Below, piece after piece: positions 4,107-16,657 of a stretch of 64,000 nucleotides of DNA. The notes below the pieces were generated by a model. It saw nothing but the letters and a program-made list of their open reading frames with translations. It ran no database searches and was not told the origin of the DNA. The stretch lies in NCBI GenBank assembly GCA_002706365.1, contig PALM01000020.1:186001-250000 (forward strand), in the 5' to 3' direction. This stretch comes from Flavobacteriales bacterium (lineage in GTDB: Bacteria > Bacteroidota > Bacteroidia > Flavobacteriales_E > Vicingaceae). Made by a program: the position numbers and the translations under genes. The stretch's first letter is position 1. The number at the start of each line of letters is the position of its first letter.

Positions 4107-4165
4107 AATATAAATGTACGCTTTGTATTGAAGACCTAATAATAGAGTAGTGTCTGAAATTATCT

Positions 4166-4193
4166 ATTTAACATAATATTAATTATAGGACAA
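4166..4193. other. dif-like Xer recombination site S1 (left end of island)
   Basis: ATTTAACATAA at 4166-4176 is identical to the reverse complement of the XerD-binding arm of E. coli dif. A 6-base centre (TATTAA) and an 11-base second arm (TTATAGGACAA, 4183-4193) follow, so the whole has the 11-6-11 dif layout. The same 11-mer recurs at four further places up to 16363. Recombination at the site is inferred. Confidence 0.6.
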
Positions 4194-4522
4194 AAGCAGT
4201 AATTTCCGTAATACGAGCCTTAGCGAGTATTTACACATAATAGCAGTTCTTGGACAGTACTCTGTACAATAACGATAGCTATTATGTTAAGGAAATTACT
4301 GCATGTATTCTAAAGGGATTTATAATTCTATGCTTTTGTCAACTATAATGGATATTATGTCTGCGTTTCATTTAAGCTTTTGTAAGCTTTGCTTTCAGCA
4401 AAACCAACAAATGCTAAAACTCAACTTGCTTGGCTCTTATCAGCCAAGTAAATTGCTCGCACAAATCCACGCTTCTTTTAAGAATAAAATGAAGAACATT
4501 CGTTTACTTTTGTCCTATAATT
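4181..4522. repeat. 342-base element with perfect 16-base terminal inverted repeats
   Basis: AATTATAGGACAAAAG (4181-4196) and its exact reverse complement (4507-4522) bound the element. Inside are a perfect 12-base pair of arms (4196-4207 with 4291-4302) and a perfect 10-base pair (4235-4244 with 4278-4287), giving a long nested hairpin. Its left part is homologous to 16314-16380 at the other end of the island. It overlaps dif-like site S1 through the second arm. A MITE-like origin is an alternative, but I see no target duplication. Confidence 0.6.
4229..4257. other. Inner dif-like site S1b
   Basis: ATTTACACATAA (one extra base relative to the XerD arm), a 6-base centre TAGCAG and the arm TTCTTGGACAG. 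The counterpart at 16353-16380 has the uninterrupted arm ATTTAACATAA, centre AATCAG and arm TTCTCGGACAC. An inverted arm TTATGTTAAGG (9 of 11 matches) follows at 4282-4292 within the hairpin. Confidence 0.45.
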
Positions 4523-4626
4523 AGTCGTTATGTCTCCGCCCGTTTGGCTAACGGGTCTTCGCCTACGGTAAATAACCGCTCAAATTGATTTAATTTTCTT
4601 TTTGCCGCCCCGAGGTTTTTCTTGCT

Positions 4627-4887
4627 CTACCCGGTGAAATAAGATTTGAGCCTATTCTTTAGAAACATTTTACCATAATGTGTTTTCAGATACTTTTCTC
4701 TTTTCAATGCATCTGCCTGTCCTAAACAAGCTTCGTAGTAAATTAATTTGAAAGGTCGTCTATTCATAGTTGATTCTACCTGACCTTTTTGGTGTTGCTC
4801 AAATCTTAAATCCAAATCCTTTGTATAGCCTGTATAAAGCTTACCATCCTTTTCGCTTTGAAGTACATAAGTGTAAAACATAATCAA
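4627..4887 (-). CDS. Small GIY-YIG nuclease-domain protein
   Basis: The 86-residue protein is one GIY-YIG domain: FYTYVLQS corresponds to the GIY strand, KLYTGYTKDLDLRFEQH to the YIG strand with the conserved Arg, and LKREKYLK carries the Glu of the active site. It resembles the YhbQ/UPF0213 group of stand-alone domains, which are widespread in Bacteroidetes and of uncertain function. It is the only gene between dif-like sites S1 (4166) and S2 (5424), so it would be the payload of the first module. The start may be the ATG two codons downstream (MFYTYVLQ). A role in mobility is possible but unproven. Confidence 0.8.
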   Translation of the reverse strand: MIMFYTYVLQSEKDGKLYTGYTKDLDLRFEQHQKGQVESTMNRRPFKLIYYEACLGQADALKREKYLKTHYGKMFLKNRLKSYFTG

Positions 4888-5331
4888 ATGTAAGGATTGG
4901 ATTTATTTCACGGGGCTAACGCTAAGCAAATAAGTTTTCATCTTTGCCAACGCTGAAGCCACCCAAAAAGATTTCAAACACATTTGCTTTTTCCCTCGCT
5001 TTTTTTAGATTTCGGTTGCTATCAAATTTTCGTTGATACTATGAAAATTGATATAACGAGATTGTTTTAAATTTTAAAAATTCATAGCCTTGTTTACAAA
5101 GCTATCGCTTTGGAGAAACCGACTTTAGGAGGTTCACGAACACATTTAAAATATTATCAAGTCGTGAGTAAATCCGAATAAATAATAGTCATATACTCAA
5201 CCTATTATTTATTTTTCTTTTTTCCTTTGATGAAAAAAGAAACAAAAAAATCAAGAAAAAACAATGCTTCTTCGCTCTCTTTGTGGCTTGCGCTGCTATC
5301 GCATCGCTGTTCCGCTAAGGCGGAACAAAAC

Positions 5332-5434
5332 CAATCCAAGGACGATTGCTATTCGTTTTAGCCACAAATTCACGCCAACGCCGGCTCGCTGTTTTTTCGG
5401 GCTTACGCTCTTTGCATTTCGTTATTTAACATAA
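5332..5434 (+). repeat. Cassette-tail repeat, copy 1 (ends in dif-like arm)
   Basis: CAATCCAAGGACGATTGC, CTATTCGTTTTAGCCAC and AAATTCACGCC follow one another, then TTTGCATT and the arm ATTTAACATAA. Copy 2 at 6363-6452 keeps the same blocks in the same order with scattered substitutions and a deletion in the middle. Each copy lies just upstream of a dif-like arm and, beyond it, the promoter of the next gene. Confidence 0.75.
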
Positions 5435-5451
5435 TATTTAAGATTGACTCA
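5424..5451. other. dif-like site S2 (XerD-type arm, weak second arm)
   Basis: ATTTAACATAA (5424-5434) is followed by centre TATTTA. The next 11 bases (AGATTGACTCA) match the S1 second arm poorly. The same arm in the same orientation as S1, S3, S4 and S5 marks the joint between the GIY-YIG module and the merTP module. Confidence 0.45.
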
Positions 5452-5481
5452 TTGCTTACAGATTATTATGTGTTAAAAAAG

Positions 5482-5489
5482 TACCTTTG
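5482..5489 (+). promoter_or_regulatory. -7 promoter box TACCTTTG for merTP
   Basis: TACCTTTG is an exact match to the Bacteroidetes -7 consensus TAnnTTTG, 34 bases before the ATG at 5524. A TTG lies at 5452-5454, somewhat further upstream than the usual 19-21 bases. The same octamer is used at 6484 for the next module. Confidence 0.55.
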
Positions 5490-5523
5490 AAAGAATTGGC
5501 AAGTTAATTTATTTAGAATCAGC

Positions 5524-6123
5524 ATGAAAACAACTTATATAGGTGCAGGACTTTTAGCAGCAATAGCTTCTTCCCTATGTTGTATAGCACCTTTGATTGC
5601 GATTGTTGGAGGAATTGCAGGAACTGCTTCTGCTTTTTCTTGGATTGAACCTGCCAGACCTTTTTTAATTGGCGTATCAATTGTTGCTTTAGGATTAGCT
5701 TTTTATCAGGCTTATAAACCTGTAGTAGTTAATGATTGCAACTGTGAAGTCACTGAAAAGAAGAACTTCATAAATTCTAAAGGTTTTTTATGGATAATTA
5801 CTGTTCTTTCGATTTTGATGTTTTCTTTTCCCTATTATTCTAATAATTTCTATCCTCCTATGACTTCAGAACAAAGGGTCTCTGACAGCACAAAAACGGT
5901 GCAATGTATCATTGATATTAAGGGAATGACTTGTGCAGGCTGTGAAAATCACGTGCAAACCGCTTTATTATCAATGAATGGAGTTACGGAAGCAAAAGCA
6001 TCCTACAAAGATGGAAATGCAGTTATTCAAGTAGATACTTCTAAAATCGCAATTAGTGAGCTGAAAATGAAATTAGAAGATGAAACAGGTTACAAAGTAT
6101 TGGGTCATAAAATCGGTAAATAA
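5524..6123 (+). CDS. merTP: MerT-MerP fusion (mercuric/metal ion transport protein MerTP)
   Basis: The 199-residue product joins a MerT-like membrane part (about 1-115, with the metal-binding SLCCIAPLIA in helix 1 at about 17-26 and a second cysteine pair CNC near residue 74) to a C-terminal HMA/MerP domain (about 127-195) carrying GMTCAGCENHV. In mer operons MerP passes Hg(II) to MerT for uptake into the cytoplasm; the one-chain form is usual in Bacteroidetes. The stop overlaps the next ATG by one base. No MerA reductase, MerB lyase or MerR regulator is present, so the true cargo or the fate of imported metal is unclear. It lies alone with its partner between dif-like sites S2 and S3. Confidence 0.85.
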   Translation: MKTTYIGAGLLAAIASSLCCIAPLIAIVGGIAGTASAFSWIEPARPFLIGVSIVALGLAFYQAYKPVVVNDCNCEVTEKKNFINSKGFLWIITVLSILMFSFPYYSNNFYPPMTSEQRVSDSTKTVQCIIDIKGMTCAGCENHVQTALLSMNGVTEAKASYKDGNAVIQVDTSKIAISELKMKLEDETGYKVLGHKIGK

Positions 6124-6347
6124 TGGAAAAAACGATTGAATTAAAATCAACGATTACTTGCCCAAAATGTGGGCATCAGAAACAAGAAGTTATGCCAACG
6201 GACGCTTGCCAATACTTTTATGATTGTGAGAATTGTAAAACCGTTTTAAAGCCAGTTAACAATGATTGCTGTGTTTATTGTTCTTACGGGACTGTCCCTT
6301 GCCCTCCTATTCAAGAGAATGGCAGTTGTGGTAGTGATTGTTGTTAG
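6123..6347 (+). CDS. GDCCVxC-domain cysteine-rich protein
   Basis: The 74-residue protein has an N-terminal zinc-ribbon-like CPKCGH plus CENC, then the family signature DCCVYCSYGTVPCPPIQ, and ends GSCGSDCC. Members are known next to mercury transport genes, sometimes with selenocysteine replacing a Cys of the signature; here all positions are Cys and no in-frame TGA is used. It overlaps the stop of merTP by one base (TAATG), implying translational coupling. The 12 cysteines in a cytosolic protein suggest capture of imported soft metal, which is inference. Confidence 0.8.
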   Translation: MEKTIELKSTITCPKCGHQKQEVMPTDACQYFYDCENCKTVLKPVNNDCCVYCSYGTVPCPPIQENGSCGSDCC

Positions 6348-6362
6348 TTATCGCTGTAAATT

Positions 6363-6452
6363 CAAATCCAAGAACGATTCCTATTCGTTTTAGCCACAAA
6401 TTCACACCGTCGCCAGCTCACACTTTTGCATTAGTAGTTTTATTTAACATAA
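6363..6452 (+). repeat. Cassette-tail repeat, copy 2 (ends in dif-like arm)
   Basis: Aligns with 5332-5434: the blocks ATCCAAGAACGATTCC, CTATTCGTTTTAGCCAC, AAATTCAC, TTTTGCATT and TTATTTAACATAATAT appear in order, with the middle shorter than in copy 1. It sits between the GDCCVxC gene and the efflux operon. Confidence 0.75.
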
Positions 6453-6469
6453 TATCAAAATAGTTCTTT
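6442..6469. other. dif-like site S3 (XerD-type arm, weak second arm)
   Basis: ATTTAACATAA (6442-6452) with centre TATCAA. The following 11 bases are not a good match to the second arm of S1. Same orientation as the other copies; it separates the merTP module from the RND/CDF module. Confidence 0.45.
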
Positions 6470-6483
6470 TTTCCAAAATTACT

Positions 6484-6491
6484 TACCTTTG
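6484..6491 (+). promoter_or_regulatory. -7 promoter box TACCTTTG before the efflux operon
   Basis: Exact TAnnTTTG match, ending five bases before the GTG start at 6497. If the transcript begins at the usual distance it would be nearly leaderless. The octamer is identical to the one preceding merTP and lies 42 bases from the start of the dif-like arm S3. Confidence 0.5.
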
Positions 6492-6496
6492 CCATT

Positions 6497-6799
6497 GTGA
6501 AAATTTTCGCAGCAATTTTAGGTATTTTCTTTTTGTGCTTGGCAGCAATGCCATGTGCCGATGCTGCCCCTTCTGAAGAAACAGTGATTGAATTAAGTCA
6601 AGAGCATAACCACGAAGGTGATATGGCCGACAACTGTGCCCCACTTTGTTATTGTCATTGCTGTCATGTTCATGTTACTATTTCAAACGATTATCCTAAA
6701 TTTTCTGCCATTACGCTTTTAAATGAACATACTAACTTTTATTCTAAAGCAGAGCCTGAAGCTCTAACCTACCCGCCATTTCGTCCCCCAATGGTTTAA
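6497..6799 (+). CDS. Small exported His/Cys-rich protein, DUF6660-like
   Basis: The 100-residue product starts with GTG and has a signal peptide (about 1-23, ending PCADA). The mature part has HNHEG and the cluster CAPLCYCHCCHVHV, a likely soft-metal ligand set in the periplasm. It resembles the DUF6660-type proteins seen in front of CusA/CzcA genes in Bacteroidetes. It is the first gene of the efflux module. The GTG is chosen because it gives the complete signal peptide; the next in-frame Met lies inside the hydrophobic core. Metal chaperone or sensor function is inferred. Confidence 0.7.
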   Translation: MKIFAAILGIFFLCLAAMPCADAAPSEETVIELSQEHNHEGDMADNCAPLCYCHCCHVHVTISNDYPKFSAITLLNEHTNFYSKAEPEALTYPPFRPPMV

Positions 6800-6812
6800 T
6801 TCAACTTTAATT

Positions 6813-6831
6813 GGGTAAGCACACCTTACCC
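6813..6831 (+). terminator. Short stem-loop after the DUF6660-like gene
   Basis: GGGTAAG (6813-6819), five-base loop and CTTACCC (6825-6831), followed by a T-rich stretch. It could be a weak terminator or attenuator between the small gene and the RND gene, 144 bases upstream of the latter. Confidence 0.4.
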
Positions 6832-6974
6832 CTTCTTATATCTTTTAAAAACCTATGGGTTTAAGGTATAATACGGAAGTAATAGCCGTTTTTGTTACGG
6901 ATATGCTATCGTTTAAAATCAGCATGGTATTAACCATTTGATTTTCAATTTATCGTTGAATTAAACTTTTAAGT

Positions 6975-9900
6975 ATGATTAATCAAATCATTTCTTTCTC
7001 AATAAGGAATAAATTTATTGTGGGCTTGCTTACGCTAGCTCTCATTGGAGTTGGAATTTATTCTATGAATACGGTCAATCTTGGATCGGTTCCGGATATT
7101 ACCAATAACCAAGTACAGGTAATGACTGTGTCCCCCAACCTTGCTACAGAAGATATCGAGCAATTTGTGACCTATCCGGTAGAGTTGGCAATGGGTAATT
7201 TGCCCGGTGTAGAGGAAATTCGCTCCATTTCCCGATTTGGACTCTCAGTAGTCACCATTGTTTTTGAAGATGAAATGGGAACTTATCTGCCGAGACAATT
7301 GGTACAGGAAAAACTGAACGAATTAAAGGAGACCATTCCTGAGAAATTTGGAAGCCCATCAATGGGTCCTATTTCCACAGGTTTAGGGCAGATTTATGAA
7401 TATACTATTCATCCTGAAGAGGGTTTTGAAGAAAAATACTCTCCAACAGACTTGCGTACAATTCAGGATTGGATTGTTAAAAGACAATTGACTTTGCTTG
7501 ACGGTGTGGTTGAAGTAAACTCTTTTGGTGGCTATATCAAGCAATACGAAGTAGCCATCAACCCCGATAAGCTAAATGCACAGAATGTAAGTATTTCTGA
7601 AGTATTTGAAGCTTTGGCTAGAAATAATGTTAATACAGGCGGTGCATACATCGAAAAAAACCGAATGTCCAACTTCATCAGAGGAGAGGGACTGATCCGA
7701 ACATTAGATGATATTCGAGCTATTGTTATTAAAACAGAAAATGGTATTCCGGTAACGATTGGCGATGTAGCCTCAAAGGTGCATTTTGGGCATCAAGTAC
7801 GCTATGGTGCATTTACTCAGGACGGTAAAGAAGCTGTTGGAGGCATTATTATGATGCTTAAAGGTTCTAATCCTAATGCCGTAATTCAAAATGTAAAAGA
7901 CCGTATGGAAGTGGTTGAAAAATCCCTTCCGGAAGGCTTAACCATAAATACAATTATTGATCGAAGTGAATTAATTGACAGGACTACCAATACGGTAAAA
8001 ACTAATCTACTAGAAGGAGCCTTGATTGTAATCTTTGCACTTGTACTATTATTAGGAAGTCTGCGGGGCGGTATCATAACAGCTACTACTATTCCGCTCT
8101 CCTTATTATTTGCATTTATATTAATGAAGCAATTTAATGTTTGGGCCAACCTAATGAGTTTAGGTGCTATTGACTTTGGAATTATCATTGACGGTGCGGT
8201 AATTATCATTGAAGGTACGGTTTATGAAATTCAAAAACGAATCCGAACAGGGAAAATTAATTTTAGCCGGGGAGTCATGGATGAAGTTGCTTATGAGTCT
8301 GGCAGCACCATGATGGGGTCTGCATTCTTTGGTCAGATTATTATCCTCATTGTATTTGCCCCAATTTTGTTTCTTACAGGCGTAGAAGGCAAAATGTTTC
8401 AACCCATGGCTTACACCTTTGGCTTTGCAATGATTGGAGCAATTTTCCTTTGCCTAACCTATGTCCCTATGATGTCTGCCTTGCTTATGAAACCAATTCA
8501 GAACAAAAATAACTGGTTTGGCCGATTTGAGCGATGGCTGGAAAAAGTGAGTGACAAAATTATTGGTGGTATTCAAAAGGCTTACTTGCCCTTGCTAAAA
8601 AGTGCTCTTCGCTTTAAAACTATAGTGATTATTGTGGCTATTTTTCTACTGGGCATCGCAGGATTTACTTTTTCCCGCATGGGAGGAGAATTTGTTCCTC
8701 AATTGGATGAAGGAGATATTGCCATGCAAGCACTCATTAGACCCGGAAGTTCACTTAGTGAATCAAAAGATGTTTCTATAAGAATTGAAAAACTTTTACT
8801 GGAGGATTTCCCGGAAATTAAAACGGTAACCGCTCGGATTGGTGTAGCAGATATTCCTACAGACCCTATGCCTATGGACATTGCTGACATGTATCTGATT
8901 CTTGAAAAAGACAAAGATAAATGGGTATCAGCAAATAGTAAAGATGAGCTAATTGATAAAATAAAAGACAAACTCGATAAGGAACTTGTTGGTGTTAACC
9001 TAGTCTTTACTCAACCAGTAGAGTTGAGATTTAACGAATTACTTGAAGGAGTGAGAGAGGACATTGCAGTAAAGCTTTATGGTGAAGATTTAGAAATTTT
9101 GTCTAACAAAGTGCAGGAGATGGCAGATATTATTTCTACTGTACCCGGTGCCGGTGATGTAAATCCCGAACGTACTTCAGGACTTCCCCAAATGACTGTT
9201 CGTTACAATCGGGCTAAAATCGCACAATACGGTCTTAATATTCAAAAACTGAATGAATACGTGAGCTCAGCTTTTGCCGGCGGAGTAGCAGGAGTAGTTT
9301 TTGAAGGTGAAAAACGATTCGATCTTGTGATCCGCTTTGATGAAGCTCATCGGAAAAGTATTGATGACCTTCGCACCCTTTATGTTGATCTTCCGGATGG
9401 TACACAAGTGCCAATTGAAGAAGTGGCTGATATTAGCTATGTCCCGGGTCCGATGCAGATTTCTCGTGATAACACCTATAGAAGAACTTATGTTGGGGTG
9501 AATACGCGAGGAAGAGATGTAGAATCGGTTGTAAAAGATATTCAAGACAAACTAAATGCACAATTGGACTTACCACCCGGTTATTATATTACCTATGGTG
9601 GAGAGTTTGAAAATTTGGAACGAGCTAAGAACAGGTTGGCTATTGTTGTTCCAATAGCATTGTTTCTGATTTTCGTCTTACTCTACTTTGCCCTAAAATC
9701 ATTCTCTCAATCCATTATGATTTACATTGCAATTCCACTAGCAGCTATTGGCGGTGTGTTTGCCTTATGGATGCGAGACATGCCCTTTAGTATCTCCGCC
9801 GGTGTAGGGTTTATTGTATTATTTGGGGTTGCGGTGCTGAATGGCTTAGTCTTAATTAACCGCTTTAATTCTTTAAAAGAAGAAGGAGTAACCAAAATCA

Positions 9901-11384
9901 AAGACCGCATTTTTACCGGAACTAAAGAACGGATTAGACCTATTATGCTTACGGCAACAACCGATATTTTCGGATTTCTGCCAATGGCATTTTCAACCTC
10001 AGCAGGTGCTGAAGTACAACGGCCATTAGCAACTGTAGTGATTGGAGGAATGCTGACAGCTACTTTTCTGACACTTGTAGTACTGCCGGTTTTTTACACT
10101 TTCGTTGAGAAACGCAGGGAAAAGAAAATTGGAAATCAGGGGAATAAAACAGCTCTGAACACCATCGTTCTGCTCATTGGTTTAGTTGGTTTATTCAGTA
10201 TTCCTCAATCTGCAACCGCACAGAATTTAAATCCAGATACCTTGGAGACTATTTCCCTTAAAAATGCTCAACAAAGGGTTGTTAAATTTTTTCCGCAAGT
10301 GAAGGCGAAAAGATTGCAAATAGAAAGCGAAGAGGCTCTCAAAAAAACGGCTTGGGATTTTGGAAATACTCAAATATTCACAGGAGCGGAGGAAGTAAGC
10401 AACAATACAGATGGAGTTTATACCCGGATAGGGGTTCAACAACAAAATATTGATGTCTTCGGCATTGCCCCACGCTTACGGTTGCAAAAAGAGCGGATAG
10501 CTCTTGCAGAAAGTTCCCTTGACTTGTCTTTAGCAGAGCTTAAACGAAAAGTGAAACTAGCTTGGGGGCAAGCTTATGCTGCGAAAAATACTTATCAGGT
10601 ATACAATCGGCTAGATTCGCTCTTTACCGATATTGAACGAGCAGCAGATGTAAGATTGGAAGTAGAAGAAACTTCTAAACTAGCTTATTTAGCTACTAAA
10701 AATCAAGCCAATGAAGTACGAATTCAAAAAGAACAGGCCTATCGCAATTACTTAAGTGCATTGCGACAGCTTAACTTATGGCTGGTCAGCGATACCCTTT
10801 ATACCGTGCCCAATGTGCCCAGTGAGCAGTTAACCGGAATACTCAATTTTGATATGGATTCCTTAAATTCTCACCCATTGCTTACTATGTATCAACAGCA
10901 AATAGAAGTGGCTGATGCTAAATTAAAGGAAACGAGATCAGACTTTTTGCCTAAGTTACAGGGTCAATATGGGTGGCAAGAAGTTGGAGGGCAAACCGGC
11001 TTTTATACCTATCAAGTAGGCATTAAGATTCCCTTGTTTTTTAGCCCTGAACTCGGACGTAAACAAGAGGCAAAAATCCAGCGAGAAATTGCCACCGAAA
11101 ACCTAAGGCAAAATCAGCTTCAATTTAATGCACAATTTCTGTCTAAAAAGGAGGAATACCTGAAGTGGCGTAACTCTTGGAGCTATTACAAAAATCAGGC
11201 ATTACCACTTGCTCAGGAGCAGAGAAAAGGAGCAATAGCCGCCTACCGTGAAGGAGCAATAAATTACGTTACCTTTTTGCAAAATATTAGGGATGCTATT
11301 CGCATAGAAGTGGATGCTTGGAATGCTTTGGGCAATTATTTGAATAACCGCTACGAACTTGAATACTTTTTAACAAAAAACTAA
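6975..11384 (+). CDS. HME-family RND metal efflux pump fused to TolC-like outer membrane channel
   Basis: The 1469-residue protein is an RND pump (about 1-1045) followed by a second signal-like helix (about 1059-1085, ending SATAQ) and a TolC-type channel (about 1086-1469). This fusion of inner-membrane pump and outer-membrane factor is characteristic of Bacteroidetes. TM4 carries GAIDFGIIIDGAVIIIE with D400, D406 and E413, matching the proton-relay residues of CzcA rather than the Cu/Ag-type CusA sequence. Divalent cations (Zn/Co/Cd/Ni) are therefore the better guess. The adaptor follows after 29 bases. It exports metal from the periplasm or cytoplasm across the envelope. Confidence 0.9.
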   Translation: MINQIISFSIRNKFIVGLLTLALIGVGIYSMNTVNLGSVPDITNNQVQVMTVSPNLATEDIEQFVTYPVELAMGNLPGVEEIRSISRFGLSVVTIVFEDEMGTYLPRQLVQEKLNELKETIPEKFGSPSMGPISTGLGQIYEYTIHPEEGFEEKYSPTDLRTIQDWIVKRQLTLLDGVVEVNSFGGYIKQYEVAINPDKLNAQNVSISEVFEALARNNVNTGGAYIEKNRMSNFIRGEGLIRTLDDIRAIVIKTENGIPVTIGDVASKVHFGHQVRYGAFTQDGKEAVGGIIMMLKGSNPNAVIQNVKDRMEVVEKSLPEGLTINTIIDRSELIDRTTNTVKTNLLEGALIVIFALVLLLGSLRGGIITATTIPLSLLFAFILMKQFNVWANLMSLGAIDFGIIIDGAVIIIEGTVYEIQKRIRTGKINFSRGVMDEVAYESGSTMMGSAFFGQIIILIVFAPILFLTGVEGKMFQPMAYTFGFAMIGAIFLCLTYVPMMSALLMKPIQNKNNWFGRFERWLEKVSDKIIGGIQKAYLPLLKSALRFKTIVIIVAIFLLGIAGFTFSRMGGEFVPQLDEGDIAMQALIRPGSSLSESKDVSIRIEKLLLEDFPEIKTVTARIGVADIPTDPMPMDIADMYLILEKDKDKWVSANSKDELIDKIKDKLDKELVGVNLVFTQPVELRFNELLEGVREDIAVKLYGEDLEILSNKVQEMADIISTVPGAGDVNPERTSGLPQMTVRYNRAKIAQYGLNIQKLNEYVSSAFAGGVAGVVFEGEKRFDLVIRFDEAHRKSIDDLRTLYVDLPDGTQVPIEEVADISYVPGPMQISRDNTYRRTYVGVNTRGRDVESVVKDIQDKLNAQLDLPPGYYITYGGEFENLERAKNRLAIVVPIALFLIFVLLYFALKSFSQSIMIYIAIPLAAIGGVFALWMRDMPFSISAGVGFIVLFGVAVLNGLVLINRFNSLKEEGVTKIKDRIFTGTKERIRPIMLTATTDIFGFLPMAFSTSAGAEVQRPLATVVIGGMLTATFLTLVVLPVFYTFVEKRREKKIGNQGNKTALNTIVLLIGLVGLFSIPQSATAQNLNPDTLETISLKNAQQRVVKFFPQVKAKRLQIESEEALKKTAWDFGNTQIFTGAEEVSNNTDGVYTRIGVQQQNIDVFGIAPRLRLQKERIALAESSLDLSLAELKRKVKLAWGQAYAAKNTYQVYNRLDSLFTDIERAADVRLEVEETSKLAYLATKNQANEVRIQKEQAYRNYLSALRQLNLWLVSDTLYTVPNVPSEQLTGILNFDMDSLNSHPLLTMYQQQIEVADAKLKETRSDFLPKLQGQYGWQEVGGQTGFYTYQVGIKIPLFFSPELGRKQEAKIQREIATENLRQNQLQFNAQFLSKKEEYLKWRNSWSYYKNQALPLAQEQRKGAIAAYREGAINYVTFLQNIRDAIRIEVDAWNALGNYLNNRYELEYFLTKN

Positions 11385-11413
11385 AACCGGAAACGGATAA
11401 AAAATTAAAAACG

Positions 11414-12628
11414 ATGAAAAATTATATCATAAAATTATTTACGCTACTGTTTTTAGCCGGATTTATATCAGCTTGTGGCGATAATACGAATGCAATTGAA
11501 CACAATCATCAAGATGGTGAGCAAAATGAATCACAAGTAGGTAACCATGAAGAAAGTCTGGGTGAAGTTCATTTGTCAGGATTGAAATTTGAAAGTCTGG
11601 GAATAAAAGTAGATACGCTTCCATCAAGACCTTTGTCAGGGGTGGTAAAGGCTAATGGACAGTTAGAAGTACCACCACAACATGAGGCTACTGTTACTGC
11701 TATTGTAGGTGGTAATATCACTTCTATAAAAGTGATTGAAGGAGATAAAGTCAATAGAGGTCAGATACTTGCTTATTTGTCTCATCCAGATCTTACTGAA
11801 ATTCAAACTAAATATATCGAAGCATATAATCGCACTGAATATTTGGAGAAGGAATACAATCGTCAGAAGAAGCTTTACGAAGAAGAGGTAGGTTCGGGCA
11901 AAACTTTTCAGGAGACAAAGTCTGATTATTTTTCTATGAAAGGAAAAGTAAAGGGCTATGAGGCACAGCTAAGGCAATTGAACCTGAATGTTGAGAAAAT
12001 TAGCAATGGTGATGTATATGAACAGATACCGGTAGTAAGCCCTATAGATGGTTATATTGAAAAAGTGGTGACTCAGATTGGTCAATATATTCAGCCTCAA
12101 ACCGGAATGTTTAAAATTGTAAATACCGATCATATTCATGCGGACTTAATGGTATTTGAAAAGGATGTATATAAAGTAAAAAAAGGACAAAAAATTGCTT
12201 TCACAGTAGAATCAGTTCCCGGAACCACCTTAACTGCCGAGATTTATTCTGTAGGCAAACAATTCGAGCAAAACCCTAAAGCTGTTCATGTGCATGCGGA
12301 AATTAAGGAAAAGAAGAATTTCTTGATTCCGGGCATGTACATCAATGGAAAAATTCAAACGGAAAGTAATACTGTAAAAGCTCTGCCGGAAGGAGCCATC
12401 ATTGAGGAAGAAGGCAGGCCTTATATTTTTATGGCGGAAGCACATGAAGAAGGTGGTGAAACCGAATGGGCATTTAAGGCTATTGAAGTGCGTACCGGCA
12501 TATCCGATGAGGGATGGGTTGAGATTAAATTATTAGAGCCTTTTCCTGATGGAGCTCAAGTAGCCATGAATAATGCCTATTACTTAATTTCTGAAATGAA
12601 AAAAGGTGAAACGGAGCATGAACATTAA
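11414..12628 (+). CDS. RND periplasmic adaptor subunit, CusB/CzcB type lipoprotein
   Basis: The 404-residue protein starts with a lipoprotein signal (about 1-21, lipobox FISAC with C21) followed by a His-rich linker (EHNHQDGEQ, NHEE). The membrane-fusion fold is visible: a first lipoyl half (HEATVTAIVGGNITSIKVIEGDKVNRGQIL), an alpha-hairpin (about 125-195), the second lipoyl half (VVSPIDGYIEKV) and a beta-barrel part. The protein links the RND pump to the TolC domain. The N-terminal histidines may sense or bind metal. The next gene starts three bases after the stop, so it belongs to the operon. Confidence 0.88.
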   Translation: MKNYIIKLFTLLFLAGFISACGDNTNAIEHNHQDGEQNESQVGNHEESLGEVHLSGLKFESLGIKVDTLPSRPLSGVVKANGQLEVPPQHEATVTAIVGGNITSIKVIEGDKVNRGQILAYLSHPDLTEIQTKYIEAYNRTEYLEKEYNRQKKLYEEEVGSGKTFQETKSDYFSMKGKVKGYEAQLRQLNLNVEKISNGDVYEQIPVVSPIDGYIEKVVTQIGQYIQPQTGMFKIVNTDHIHADLMVFEKDVYKVKKGQKIAFTVESVPGTTLTAEIYSVGKQFEQNPKAVHVHAEIKEKKNFLIPGMYINGKIQTESNTVKALPEGAIIEEEGRPYIFMAEAHEEGGETEWAFKAIEVRTGISDEGWVEIKLLEPFPDGAQVAMNNAYYLISEMKKGETEHEH

Positions 12629-12631
12629 GAT

Positions 12632-13264
12632 ATGGAGAACAATCGAAATAAATACCTAAAAGAAGCAAGAAGATTACAAATATGGAACGTCATTTATGAT
12701 GTTATTGAGGTGGTTGTTGCTCTAATTGCAGGCGTTTCTTCCAATAGCTCGGCACTTATTGGTTGGGCTTTAGATAGTACCATTGAAGTTATAAGTGCAG
12801 CTACTTTAGGTTGGCGTTTACATGGTGAAATTGAAGGAATTGATGAAGAAAGAGTGCAGCGAAGAAAGAAAATAACATTATATGTGATCGCCGCTTCCTT
12901 TACTTTAGTTTGCTTTTTTATTTCCTATGATTCTATTTCGAAATTGATAAATCAGGAAACTGCTAAATGGAGCACCGCAGGATTGATTATACTATTGGTT
13001 TCTTTGGTGGTAAACCCAATTCTAATTTATTACAAAAGAGATTATGGTAAAAAACTTGACAGTTCCGGCTTGTTGGCTGATGCAAAAGACACTTTTATTT
13101 GCCTTTACCAAACAGTGGTAGTCCTCGCCGGATTGTTACTTTCAAAATGGTTAGGATGGTGGTGGGCAGACCCTTTAGCTGCACTTTTAATTGTTCCTTA
13201 TGCAGCAAAAGAAGGTAGGGAAGCCTTTAAAAAAGCGAAGGAGATTTCTTATGAAGTCGGTTGA
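12632..13264 (+). CDS. CDF-like cation transporter lacking a cytosolic domain
   Basis: The 210-residue product has about six hydrophobic segments and little else. Motif-like acid residues occur where CDF exporters bind metal: ALDSTIEVIS in the second segment (D, E) and LADAKDTFIC in the fifth. The C-terminal domain of classical CDF proteins is missing, making it shorter than the usual 290-320 residues. It starts three bases after the adaptor gene. It is probably a metal/proton antiporter from cytosol to periplasm; the ion is unknown. Confidence 0.75.
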   Translation: MENNRNKYLKEARRLQIWNVIYDVIEVVVALIAGVSSNSSALIGWALDSTIEVISAATLGWRLHGEIEGIDEERVQRRKKITLYVIAASFTLVCFFISYDSISKLINQETAKWSTAGLIILLVSLVVNPILIYYKRDYGKKLDSSGLLADAKDTFICLYQTVVVLAGLLLSKWLGWWWADPLAALLIVPYAAKEGREAFKKAKEISYEVG

Positions 13265-13364
13265 TCATTTTGGGATTTATCGACAAGTTGGTTTTCATTA
13301 AAAAGGCGAAGCAGAACATAGTCATTAAACTAATGCTGATGTACTAAAACAATAGAATAAATAT

Positions 13365-14021
13365 ATGAACGGAACTAAAAAAGAACAAGAAGAAGCAATT
13401 CACTATTACGATAAGATTTCGACTATCTACGATTTTATCTCGAATTGGTATTATAAAAAACCAAGAAAATATGCAATTGAAAAACTCAAATTAAAAAAAG
13501 ACCAAGTTGTTCTAAACCTGCCATGTGGGACAGGAGTGAATTTTAAATATTTTCAGCATTATCTTAAAAATTCAGGATTGATTTTAGGAATTGATTTATC
13601 TGATGGAATGCTGAAACAAGCGGAGCAGAAAATTGATAAAAACGATTGGACAAACATTGATTTACAGTTAGAAAATGCCATCATGGTCGATCAAAAATGG
13701 GTTAATGAGTATTCAAATGGTAAGAGAATAGAAAAATTCGATGCTGTATTTTGCGATTTAGGGCTTTCCGGACTTCCTGATTGGAAGAACATAATTGACA
13801 ACATGATCTCAATATTAAAACCGGGAGGGTCGATTGTAATTCTTGATTGGTACGTTGAAAAGCCCGGACTATTAGGGAAATTTATTAAATGGATTGGCAA
13901 AGGAGAAGTTAAAAGACCACTGTGGCAATACTTACAAAGCAAAATATTTGACTTTGAACTGAAGTGGTTTGGGGTTTTCAATGGTGTATTTGTAGCATCC
14001 GGTGTGAAAGCACCTAAATAA
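13365..14021 (+). CDS. Class I SAM-dependent methyltransferase
   Basis: The 218-residue product has the Rossmann methyltransferase motifs in order: VVLNLPCGTGVNF (motif I, about 49-61), GIDLSDGMLKQAEQK (acidic end of strand 2), DAVFCDLGLSGLPDW and LKPGGSIVILDWY (post-motif III, about 150-162). It resembles the UbiE/small-molecule methyltransferase group. Its position between metal transporters suggests methylation of a metal or metalloid species or a lipid/quinone, but no As/Te-specific cysteine pattern is evident. The gap of 100 bases from the previous gene contains no clear promoter. Confidence 0.8.
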   Translation: MNGTKKEQEEAIHYYDKISTIYDFISNWYYKKPRKYAIEKLKLKKDQVVLNLPCGTGVNFKYFQHYLKNSGLILGIDLSDGMLKQAEQKIDKNDWTNIDLQLENAIMVDQKWVNEYSNGKRIEKFDAVFCDLGLSGLPDWKNIIDNMISILKPGGSIVILDWYVEKPGLLGKFIKWIGKGEVKRPLWQYLQSKIFDFELKWFGVFNGVFVASGVKAPK

Positions 14022-14030
14022 AAGAAAACG

Positions 14031-14399
14031 ATGAATACTGTAATTCCAAAGAAGTTAAAGCCATTCTATCTAGCAGAACTGAATGCTTATAAATGTGAGG
14101 TGCAAAAGAATAACTTGCATAAAGCTTGGCAACATTTAGAGAGAGCTCATGTAATAGGGCAAGCCTACCCATACGAACATTCCTATGTGCATTGGAAAAT
14201 GCTTTTGTTTGGCATCAAAATTAAAAACACAAAAGAAGTAGTCGGGCAGATTCCAAGATTAGTGTTTGGTGGTATAAAGTCATTCGTAGGTACTATTCCG
14301 GTAGGCAATACAGGCGGAGCAAACGTTCCACCTCTTCGTCCCTTGCCAATTTCAGAGGAAATTCAAAACATATTTAAATTAGCGGGAGTTAAAAAGTAA
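14031..14399 (+). CDS. DUF3703-like protein
   Basis: The 122-residue protein matches what is known of DUF3703: an N-terminal helix-rich LAELNAYKCEVQKNNLHKAWQHLERAHVIGQAY, a WKMLLFGIK segment and a C-terminal PVGNTGGANVPPLRPLPI. The LERAHxxGQ block with two histidines recurs in the family. Function is unknown; such genes commonly lie beside heavy-metal transporters. It begins nine bases after the methyltransferase and is followed by the CzcD-like gene after six bases, so the three are probably cotranscribed. Confidence 0.75.
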   Translation: MNTVIPKKLKPFYLAELNAYKCEVQKNNLHKAWQHLERAHVIGQAYPYEHSYVHWKMLLFGIKIKNTKEVVGQIPRLVFGGIKSFVGTIPVGNTGGANVPPLRPLPISEEIQNIFKLAGVKK

Positions 14400-14405
14400 T
14401 GCAAT

Positions 14406-15284
14406 ATGGGACATAATCATTCACATGAAAATGAATCCGGTAAGAATCTAAGAACAGCGTTTTTACTTAACATATGTTTTACCATTTTTGAAATAATTGG
14501 TGGCTTTTACGTCAATAGTGTCGCTATTATATCCGATGCCGTTCATGATTTGGGAGATAGTATTTCATTAGGCATTTCATGGTATTTGGATAAAAAATCG
14601 AAACAAGTAGGAAATAAGAAGTTTTCTTTTGGTTACAAGCGATTTTCGCTCTTAGGAGCATTAATTAACTCCTTGGTTTTAATTGGTGGTTCGGTTTACG
14701 TAATTTATGAAGCGATAAACCGATTAATTGAACCTGAACTTTCAGATGCTAATGGTATGATTGTTTTTGCAATAATTGGAGTATCTGTTAATGGTTATGC
14801 CTCTTGGAAATTGAGTGGTGCAAAAACATTGAACGAAAAAGTAGTTTCATGGCATTTATTGGAGGATGTTTTGGGTTGGGCTGCGGTGCTTGTAGTTGCT
14901 ATAATTTTAAAATTTAAACAAACCCCCTATTTAGACCCTGCTCTTTCCCTTTTTATAACTGCGTATATTTTATTTAATGTAGTCAAGCGACTAAAAGAAA
15001 CATTAGTCATATTTCTACAAGGCGTTCCAGACGACATTAGTATTGATAAAATTGAAATCGCATTAATTGCAATTGAGAATGTGGATTCCATTCATCATAC
15101 ACACATTTGGTCTCAGGAAGGAGAAAGCCACGTTTTTAGCACACATTTAAAACTGAAGAATATTCAAAATTTGAATGAATTATTGAAATTGAAAAAAGCA
15201 GTAAAAGAAAGCTTAAAAGAATACCACTTCGATCATTGTACGGTAGAAACAGAATTGGATAAAGAGAGTTGTGGAATAGAATAA
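14406..15284 (+). CDS. Cation diffusion facilitator, CzcD/ZitB type
   Basis: The 292-residue product starts with a His-rich tail (MGHNHSHENE), has six membrane helices and a C-terminal cytosolic domain (about 205-285) with IHHTHIWS. The zinc site is intact: HDLGD (HxxxD) in helix 2 within SDAVHDLGDS, and HLLED (HxxxD) in helix 5. It should export Zn(II), Cd(II) or Co(II) from the cytosol in exchange for protons, feeding the periplasmic capture by the RND pump. Of the three CDF-type proteins here it is the only one with the classical metal site. Confidence 0.88.
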   Translation: MGHNHSHENESGKNLRTAFLLNICFTIFEIIGGFYVNSVAIISDAVHDLGDSISLGISWYLDKKSKQVGNKKFSFGYKRFSLLGALINSLVLIGGSVYVIYEAINRLIEPELSDANGMIVFAIIGVSVNGYASWKLSGAKTLNEKVVSWHLLEDVLGWAAVLVVAIILKFKQTPYLDPALSLFITAYILFNVVKRLKETLVIFLQGVPDDISIDKIEIALIAIENVDSIHHTHIWSQEGESHVFSTHLKLKNIQNLNELLKLKKAVKESLKEYHFDHCTVETELDKESCGIE

Positions 15285-15291
15285 AAGGATA

Positions 15292-16089
15292 ATGAAGAAA
15301 TCAATTTTCAATATTGCTCAAATGGATTGCCCGTCCGAAGAACAAATGATACGGATGAAATTGTCAGAGTTAAATGGAATTCATCAACTTGAATTTGATA
15401 TTCCCAATAGGAAACTGACCATAGTTAATGAAACAGATTCTAAGTTAATTCTTGATTCTTTAGAAGATTTAAAACTCAATACCACTTTAATTTCTGAAGA
15501 ATCAATTAAAGATTATGTAGCTGAAAAATCAACCAATGCGAATGAGCGTAAAATGTTGTGGGCAGTTCTCATTATCAATTTTACCTTCTTTTTGATTGAA
15601 TTGATCTATGGTTGGCTTTCAGATTCAATGGGGTTAATCGCTGATTCATTAGATATGCTTGCTGATTCTTTGGTTTATATTTTGAGTCTGATGGCAGTTG
15701 GAGCAGCTGTAGCTAAAAAGAAAAAAGTAGCACGTTTAAGTGGATATTTTCAAATGGCTTTAGCAGTTTTAGGTTTAGCTGAATTAATAAGAAGAGTTTT
15801 CGGAACGTCTGAAATTCCTGAGTTTCAGAATATGATTATCATTTCAATTTTAGCCCTAATTGCCAATTCTGTTTCGCTCTACCTCATTCAGAAAGCCAAA
15901 AGTAAAGAAGCTCATATGCAAGCTTCAGCTATTTTTACTTCAAATGATATCATTATTAATTCGGGTGTAATTGTAGCAGGTGTTTTAGTCTACCTGACTG
16001 AAAGTAAGATTCCCGATTTGGTAATTGGGTTAATCATTTTTGGAATTGTATTAAGAGGTGCTTTTAGAATATTAAGATTAGGAAAATAA
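15292..16089 (+). CDS. Cation transporter with degenerate HMA-like N-terminus
   Basis: The 265-residue product begins with an about 70-residue HMA-like fold whose binding loop reads MDCPSEEQM, so only one Cys remains, followed by a CDF-like six-helix membrane part. Metal-site positions read DMLAD in helix 2 (DxxxD) and NDIIIN in helix 5, unlike the HxxxD pairs of the neighbouring CDF. There is no cytosolic C-terminal domain. It starts eight bases after the previous gene and closes the operon. Altered ligands suggest a different ion from the CzcD-like neighbour. Confidence 0.75.
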   Translation: MKKSIFNIAQMDCPSEEQMIRMKLSELNGIHQLEFDIPNRKLTIVNETDSKLILDSLEDLKLNTTLISEESIKDYVAEKSTNANERKMLWAVLIINFTFFLIELIYGWLSDSMGLIADSLDMLADSLVYILSLMAVGAAVAKKKKVARLSGYFQMALAVLGLAELIRRVFGTSEIPEFQNMIIISILALIANSVSLYLIQKAKSKEAHMQASAIFTSNDIIINSGVIVAGVLVYLTESKIPDLVIGLIIFGIVLRGAFRILRLGK

Positions 16090-16293
16090 TAATATTGCCT
16101 CCCCTACTTCACACACTTTCGTTTTCGCTGCGCTGCACCAAAAAAGTGTTCCGTCCTTCCCCAAATTGAAGAGAAAGAGAAAAACCTTCCCTCCTTTTTT
16201 AAAAAGAAATTAAATCAGCTTCCCAAATAAAATTTTGTCATGATTTTTGGGGAATTGAAGGGTTAAAATCACGCCAAAATTTAATGCTGCGTT

Positions 16294-16325
16294 ATTTAAC
16301 ATAACGCAAGGACATTATAGGGCAT
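16294..16325. other. dif-like site S4 (right end of island)
   Basis: ATTTAACATAA (16294-16304) and TTATAGGGCAT (16315-16325, 9 of 11 matches to the S1 second arm) are separated by ten bases instead of six. The site is also part of a perfect 8-base palindrome, TGCGTTAT with ATAACGCA around TTAAC. It is the direct-repeat counterpart of S1, about 12.1 kb away. Confidence 0.5.
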
Positions 16326-16488
16326 AATAAGATAAATCCCGTAATACGTAGTATTTAACATAAAATCAGTTCTCGGACACACCTGTTCGAGATCGATCGA
16401 TTTTATGCGCCGTGCTGAGCCCGTCGAAGCATTAAGGGATTTATCGCATTCATAATAGAATGATCCAAAAACTCTATTATGCCGCCCT
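16314..16488. repeat. Hairpin element homologous to the left-end element
   Basis: The outer arms are AGGGCATAATA (16319-16329) and TATTATGCC-G-CCCT (16475-16488); the inner arms GATAAATCCC (16331-16340) and GGGATTTATC (16436-16445) are perfect. ATTATAGG, CCGTAATACG, GTATTTA, ACATAA, CAGTTCT and GGACA occur in the same order as in 4182-4256. The element is shorter than the left one and has taken up a GAGCCCGTCGAAGC word in its loop. Confidence 0.6.
16353..16380. other. dif-like site S5
   Basis: ATTTAACATAA (16353-16363), six-base centre AATCAG, second arm TTCTCGGACAC (16370-16380). With S1 it is the only site here with a full 11-6-11 layout; its second arm matches the S1 arm at 8 of 11 positions. 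Confidence 0.6.
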
Positions 16489-16657
16489 GACTGCCTATAT
16501 ATCGCAAACCGTCCGGGTTTAACAAAATATTGATCATTGGAAAGACTTGCTTTCTAGTGGCATTTAATTGCTTTTGAGAATTAGCAATTTTTACTCCTAA
16601 ATTTTATAATCATCAACCTTCCTTTGCCTTGAAAATGCTACTTAAAGTGCTTTGTAA

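Follow-up and report, generated by a model that had tools for sequence, protein, structure and literature searches.

A metal-resistance island at the chromosomal dif site of a Flavobacteriales bacterium, with a covarying hairpin as its probable CTXphi-type attachment site

A 12.13-kb metal-resistance island lies at dif, the site at which linked copies of a bacterial chromosome are untangled, in a Flavobacteriales bacterium, and is probably an IMEX without phage genes that uses a folded, CTXphi-type attachment site and the host Xer enzymes. In the window (the whole stretch of 64,000 nucleotides analysed, from contig PALM01000020.1) it occupies 4183..16314, beginning with its XerC arm and ending with its own centre, as delimited by junction comparison with a related island in the genome G006. 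As in an IMEX, dif-like direct repeats stand on both flanks of the island, at dif, and no recombinase of its own is found among its larger predicted proteins (Pfam); as in a CTXphi-type attP, two inverted dif-like sites fold into an XerC stem, an unpaired centre and an XerD stem. Filamentous-phage replication and virion genes, which would mark a CTXphi-type phage, were not recognised in the island.

The left element of the window (4165-4360) contains dif (4167..4192, plus strand) in a 10+6+10 layout: XerD arm TTTAACATAA at 4167-4176, 6-nt centre TATTAA at 4177-4182 and XerC arm TTATAGGACA at 4183-4192. With up to three mismatches allowed, the motif TTTAACATAA-TATTAA-TTATAGGACA is present in exactly one copy in 11 of 14 Bacteroidota genomes and absent from the other three; in the island's own genome the arm pattern occurs once with zero mismatches, the next best, with two, sitting within the right element. 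The site is conserved class-wide, and the whole left element finds matches in 100 of 149 related genomes at E <= 0.01, mostly over its first 30 bases. Read on the other strand, the motif is identical to E. coli dif, GGTGCGCATAATGTATATTATGTTAAAT (PMC3025954), at 20 of 28 positions, counted by eye. Cumulative GC skew of the contig has its maximum at 205,946, with dif at 190,167 and the right junction at about 202,300 (202.3 kb), and the mean skew is +0.039 on the left and -0.029 on the right; the switch is clear in this contig alone, as by sampling G084 is noisy and G079 is roughly 260 kb off. Among the proteins encoded in the genome are XerD, which exceeds the NCBIfam cut-off, and another that is XerC/D-like (281.6 bits) and putatively XerC. 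Because of its copy number, its likeness to E. coli dif, its position in the skew and the encoded XerD and XerC/D-like proteins, the 26-mer of the left element can most probably be identified as the chromosomal dif, in which case the window spans the replication terminus.

The original prediction had described a right element that shares a series of boxes with the left one and differs from it in its stems. The boxes are all in place: ATTTAACATAA at 16294-16304, TTATAGG from 16315, GATAAATCCC at 16331-16340, CGTAATACG at 16340-16348, TTTAACATAA-AATCAG-TTCTCGGACA at 16354-16379 and GGGATTTATC at 16436-16445, and so is the left counterpart with its different stems, at 4165-4360. What went unseen is that the shared boxes are, judged by their sequence, the XerD and XerC arms of dif; with the chromosome's single dif in the left element, the ends of the island would therefore be products of site-specific recombination at dif. 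The right element (16295-16490) opens with TTTAACATAA-CGCAAGGACA-TTATAGGGCA, followed by the homologous hairpin. This opening is the right junction, an altered dif (16295..16324, plus strand) composed of an XerD arm at 16295-16304, which sits in the loop of a palindrome GCGTTATTTAACATAACGC, a 10-nt centre CGCAAGGACA at 16305-16314 and an XerC arm TTATAGGGCA at 16315-16324. The two ends had been taken for direct repeats about 12.1 kb apart; the spacing (4167 to 16295) stands, but they are not two copies of one element.

The anatomy of the junctions can be read in two genomes. The island of G006, which belongs to another genus, has 99.1% nucleotide identity to ours over the last 2.2 kb up to window position 16327, 97% at the left hairpin and 91% over 6.6 kb inside, with a mosaic middle part. 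At the right end the two are the same up to ATAACGCA, with a slightly different centre, and a different hairpin follows the first bases of the XerC arm; at the left end the sequence is shared from TTATAGGACAAAAG rightward, and the differences lie in the centre and to its left. These positions of divergence thus put the breakpoint at the centre/XerC-arm border at both ends, which is the XerC cleavage position in cholera phages (PMC4246890). The flanks outside the island have no similarity to the G006 stretches compared, and the XerD proteins of the two genomes are only 68% identical. A near-identical island between unrelated flanks, in hosts with XerD proteins this far apart, has moved horizontally, possibly by natural transformation, by conjugation or with a helper phage. 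An origin of the island as a phage or plasmid was considered and dropped, the searches of viral contigs (altered dif), phage records (left hairpin) and plasmids (right terminus) having returned no matching record; one plasmid match is to the dif-like 38-mer alone.

Of 199 genomes, 8 have altered dif sites of this type, and all 8 belong to the island's own family; the window's own copy, with its 10-nt centre, escapes the search pattern. Such sites make up stacks of units of about 10 kb, oriented like dif, in both G005 and G019. The left hairpin belongs to the island; given the stacked units at dif, the right hairpin (16315 onward, XerC arm included) was most plausibly the attachment hairpin of an element that had occupied the place next to dif before. 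The original prediction had put that hairpin at the right end of the island; the island itself stops at about 16314, and the hairpin is better assigned to the older neighbour. Inside the island, two 63-bp repeats of 86% identity (window 5333-5440 and 6365-6458) immediately precede cargo genes. Behind each repeat comes a perfect copy of the XerD-arm motif TTTAACATAAT, for which no clear XerC arm can be made out. These may be what is left of older junctions, and the island may accordingly be composite.

Folded as a single strand, the left element consists of nested parts. The inner three-way-junction hairpin (4196..4302, plus strand) is formed by an outer stem GCAGTAATTTCC/GGAAATTACTGC, a short hairpin and a folded pair of dif-like sites; site B (4335..4364, minus strand), an inverted dif-like site with a 6-nt centre, pairs with dif and closes the outer hairpin; and site C (4507..4537, minus strand), assigned partly by eye, is a second inverted dif-like site. 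The order of inverted dif-like sites on the XerC side of dif is hence the inner pair, then B, then C. In the older occupant's hairpin, the inner three-way junction (16331..16445, plus strand) has the outer stem GATAAATCCC/GGGATTTATC, and an inverted B-type partner CTCTATTATGCCGCC (16473..16487, minus strand), recognised in the fold and by eye, closes the outer hairpin of the right element. Inner modules follow a common order of variable outer stem, short hairpin, XerD stem, internal loop and XerC stem, the internal loop having one bulged base, usually an A, that faces 4-6 nt on the opposite side. Compared with dinucleotide shuffles as single-stranded DNA, the whole elements fold with z -7.9 (left) and z -5.0 (right), and the inner modules with z -8.5 and z -3.1. 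The right module carries a short insert GTGCTGAGCCCGTCGAAGCA at 16412-16431; stretches like it, of the form TGAGC..GTCGAAG, also break up the modules in L020 and L023 and are perhaps a small mobile repeat. At about 1963-2265 of L059 (G069 contig 115, 18963-19265) three inner modules stand in tandem directly behind dif, which suggests that the modules themselves multiply.

The pairing of the hairpin is under selection, as the original prediction had proposed from the differing stems. Across 19 modules, with arms trimmed by hand and loops taken out, 95.6% of the pairing cells are paired, and 15 of 25 base pairs have changed on both sides (compensatory changes). The modules reach a covariation score of 0.451, whereas shuffles score 0.150, with none of 500 as high, and sliding the arms gives at most 0.088; with stems swapped between modules, the observed pairing is never reached in 20,000 permutations. 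Imperfect pairs are G.T in 12 cases and A.C in 2, an excess that suggests that one particular strand folds and that fits the plus strand. The covariance model R1 was built on the RNAalifold structure, which leaves out most of the outer stem (tested separately, with the hand-trimmed arms). Run on the entire 358-kb contig, it returns two matches, the left and right hairpins, both of them training sequences (E 8e-16 and 1e-10); in 149 genomes it returns 19 matches at E <= 1e-4, part of them training sequences and every one beside dif or an altered dif. The matches outside the training set (among them G006, G010, G019 at 426 kb, G026 contig 34 and further copies in G069) adjoin dif or an altered dif likewise, and among 74 named loci chosen for dif the seven strong matches, all seven from the training set, abut dif. 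The covariance search suggested at the outset has thus yielded further members, in which pairing is maintained and accessory genes are flanked.

Covariation cannot separate RNA from single-stranded DNA, and a plus strand that tolerates G.T(U) pairs would also suit a structured RNA, a regulator or non-coding RNA that came to lie beside dif by chance. We consider this very unlikely: the hairpin always adjoins dif or an altered dif, whatever the cargo, and dif arms make up its conserved loops; one-side G.U changes account for just 12 cells, compared with 77 both-side changes; and the hairpin has no Rfam match at gathering level. The hairpins could otherwise serve dif itself, in fork arrest or in the control of FtsK or Xer, with islands at the terminus being incidental, and hairpins are indeed found adjacent to dif in many families. 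Among the 87 dif loci with enough flank, however, 21 have an inverted dif partner within 400 nt on the XerC side, compared with 2 that have one on the XerD side and 2 in shuffled flanks, leaving 66 of the 87 without a partner; moreover, the same module occurs at altered dif sites some 10 kb from dif, and its sequence travels with the island, so that a host terminus structure is hardly credible. Two of these observations also count against the probable attachment role, namely that the hairpin is absent from most of the 87 loci and that altered dif sites were found in one family only.

We propose the following course of integration by analogy with CTXphi. The attachment site would consist of two mutually inverted dif-like sites in place of a plain double-stranded one, with a centre of 9-10 nt in the first and of 6 nt in its inverted partner B, and the pair would fold within one strand into an XerC stem, an unpaired centre and an XerD stem. 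The host enzymes XerC and XerD would carry the reaction: XerC would cut at the border between centre and XerC arm, both in dif and in the folded strand, one strand would be exchanged, and replication would then complete the integration. The left product would be a proper dif, composed of the host XerD arm, the host centre and the island's XerC arm, and the right product an altered dif, presumably poorly recombining, composed of the island's XerD arm and centre and the XerC arm of the old neighbour. Repeated insertions would stack elements and leave the right hairpin from an earlier occupant. For the attachment site reconstructed for the island, the folding z-score is -7.1; the fold of minimum energy contains the XerC stem but has the XerD arm taken up by a small palindrome of its own. 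Beside the XerC cut, the centres of host and island have little sequence in common, which counts against our proposal, the homology next to that cut being said to decide CTXphi integration (PMC4246890). The lack of recognised replication, relaxase and virion genes on the island, and of a matching plasmid or phage record, counts against it as well.

It is the covariation that points to single-stranded DNA as the recombining form. Were a double-stranded circle to recombine with dif through a single altered dif, as in integration of the VGJphi or GGI type, one XerC exchange would yield identical junctions (PMC4246890), and the hairpins would be accessory, for instance in replication or packaging. 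Such a route leaves unexplained the covarying pairing within a strand, the constant succession of a long-centre site and an inverted site, and the bias of G.T over A.C, and we regard it as unlikely.

Integron attC sites are likewise folded single-stranded DNA with extrahelical bases, recombined by a tyrosine recombinase, and the cassette-like units at dif add to the resemblance. Nevertheless, the chance that these loci are integron-like arrays of attC sites served by an IntI integrase is close to negligible: IntI exceeds the cut-off in none of 60 genomes, the best matches skipping profile positions ~181-238, the target is dif, and the arms match dif and not the known attC boxes. An attC identity was rejected on these grounds, and the folded Xer site remains our preferred reading.

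The cargo of the island is metal resistance, encoded almost throughout on the plus strand. A MerT and HMA-domain protein (5524..6123) is followed by an RND efflux pump of the AcrB/CzcA type fused to an OEP domain (6975..11384), a membrane fusion protein of the CusB/HlyD type (11414..12628), a first cation efflux (CDF) protein (12632..13264), a methyltransferase-domain protein with a DUF3703 protein (13365..14399) and two more CDF proteins (14406..16089), which makes three CDF exporters. The RND pump and the outer-membrane efflux (OEP) domain form one protein of 1469 amino acids, and ORFs of similar length occur in L049 and L050. No recombinase, replication protein, relaxase or capsid/virion gene was recognised in the ORF list or, for the larger predicted proteins, by Pfam. 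Directly behind the left hairpin lies a GIY-YIG nuclease-domain gene (4627..4887, minus strand; Pfam PF01541), which could be cargo or could encode a nuclease acting on the folded strand; a role in homing or as a single-strand nuclease was set aside, with no match at the other dif loci tested and none in viral contigs.

The cargo next to dif is swappable and differs between hosts. Locus L048 (2975-12094) holds a complete Mza-type defence system, a C5 methylase and matches to MzaB-E, between dif and an altered dif; G008 has C5 methylase, HATPase, Z1, DUF4420 and AIPR proteins, which are the MzaB-E matches plus the methylase. G015 carries putAbiC and NA37 proteins, and G010, the two units of G005 and the second unit of G019 contain mostly large secreted-looking or uncharacterised proteins, judged by eye. 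Outside the island's own order, a locus from a Bacteroidales MAG (L134), in which the hairpin is present, has a CBASS cyclase, an E2-like protein and a methylase 1.3-6.5 kb downstream of dif; no right border could be found for it. In G023, phage-like genes lie between dif and a degenerate dif-like site. A similar span in L055 (1330-16360) encodes packaging-ATPase-like and capsid-like proteins, by eye, and is perhaps a tailless provirus.

Like the island, IMEX of the CTXphi type in Vibrio cholerae have no recombinase of their own and leave an altered dif at one junction (PMC4246890, PMC5357621), and the folded attP(+) of CTXphi, formed by attP1 and attP2, has the same inverted pair giving XerC stem, unpaired centre and XerD stem in one strand. 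The dimensions are comparable, CTXphi having a long centre of 12 bp, a short one of 5-7 bp and sites 90 bp apart (PMC4246890), and the island centres of 9-10 and 6 nt and sites some tens of nt to ~140 nt apart. Unlike CTXphi, the window island and its relatives belong to Bacteroidota, have an additional nested three-way-junction module and carry metal-resistance, restriction/defence or secreted-protein genes in place of a filamentous phage, with no recognised replication or virion genes. The BMV microviruses (PMC3091885) and PhiCjT23-like phages (PMC9719478) of Bacteroidetes resemble the island in being integrase-less, with dif-like flanks and predicted use of XerC/D, but are single-stranded DNA phages of ~6-8 kb with capsid and replication genes, and folded inverted attachment pairs are not described in the parts of these reports available to us. 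The gonococcal genetic island, EludIMEX-1 and Legionella LME-1 (PMC5357621, PMC9765430) also sit at dif, but in other phyla, and the accessible portions of these sources describe no folded inverted pair; LME-1 is reported there to have intact dif on one side and, on the other, a modified dif that lowers excision. The pdif or XerC/D-site modules of Acinetobacter (PMC7399989, PMC5790767) share with the island cargo bounded by XerC/D sites and no recombinase; they are mostly plasmid-borne, and no conserved hairpin fold is mentioned in the sections consulted.

Integrase-less phages at dif are already known in Bacteroidetes (PMC3091885, PMC9719478), and so are non-phage IMEX in other phyla (PMC5357621, PMC9765430). 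In the open literature, which includes few subscription papers, we found no report of islands that lack phage genes and bear folded inverted Xer sites, nor of stacks of cargo at dif in Bacteroidota. More tentatively, and leaning slightly against it ourselves, we put forward a phylum-wide, virus-free class of Bacteroidota islands that integrate as single strands, in which the host XerCD would serve as integrase, dif as the head of an array and covarying three-way-junction DNA hairpins as attachment sites, making up an integron-like archive at the terminus of defence, metal-resistance and secreted-protein cargo, possibly fed by uptake of single-stranded DNA. If our reading is true, XerCD and oligonucleotides would allow a test of which nucleic acid form integrates, a covarying structure without a match in Rfam would be accounted for, and terminus islands with metal-resistance, Mza or CBASS genes could be found by a simple marker, dif followed by an inverted partner. 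Islands without recognised phage genes would then also make use of the folding of a single DNA strand, as known from the CTXphi attP and the integron attC, and dif in Bacteroidota would be a loading dock for accessory genes.
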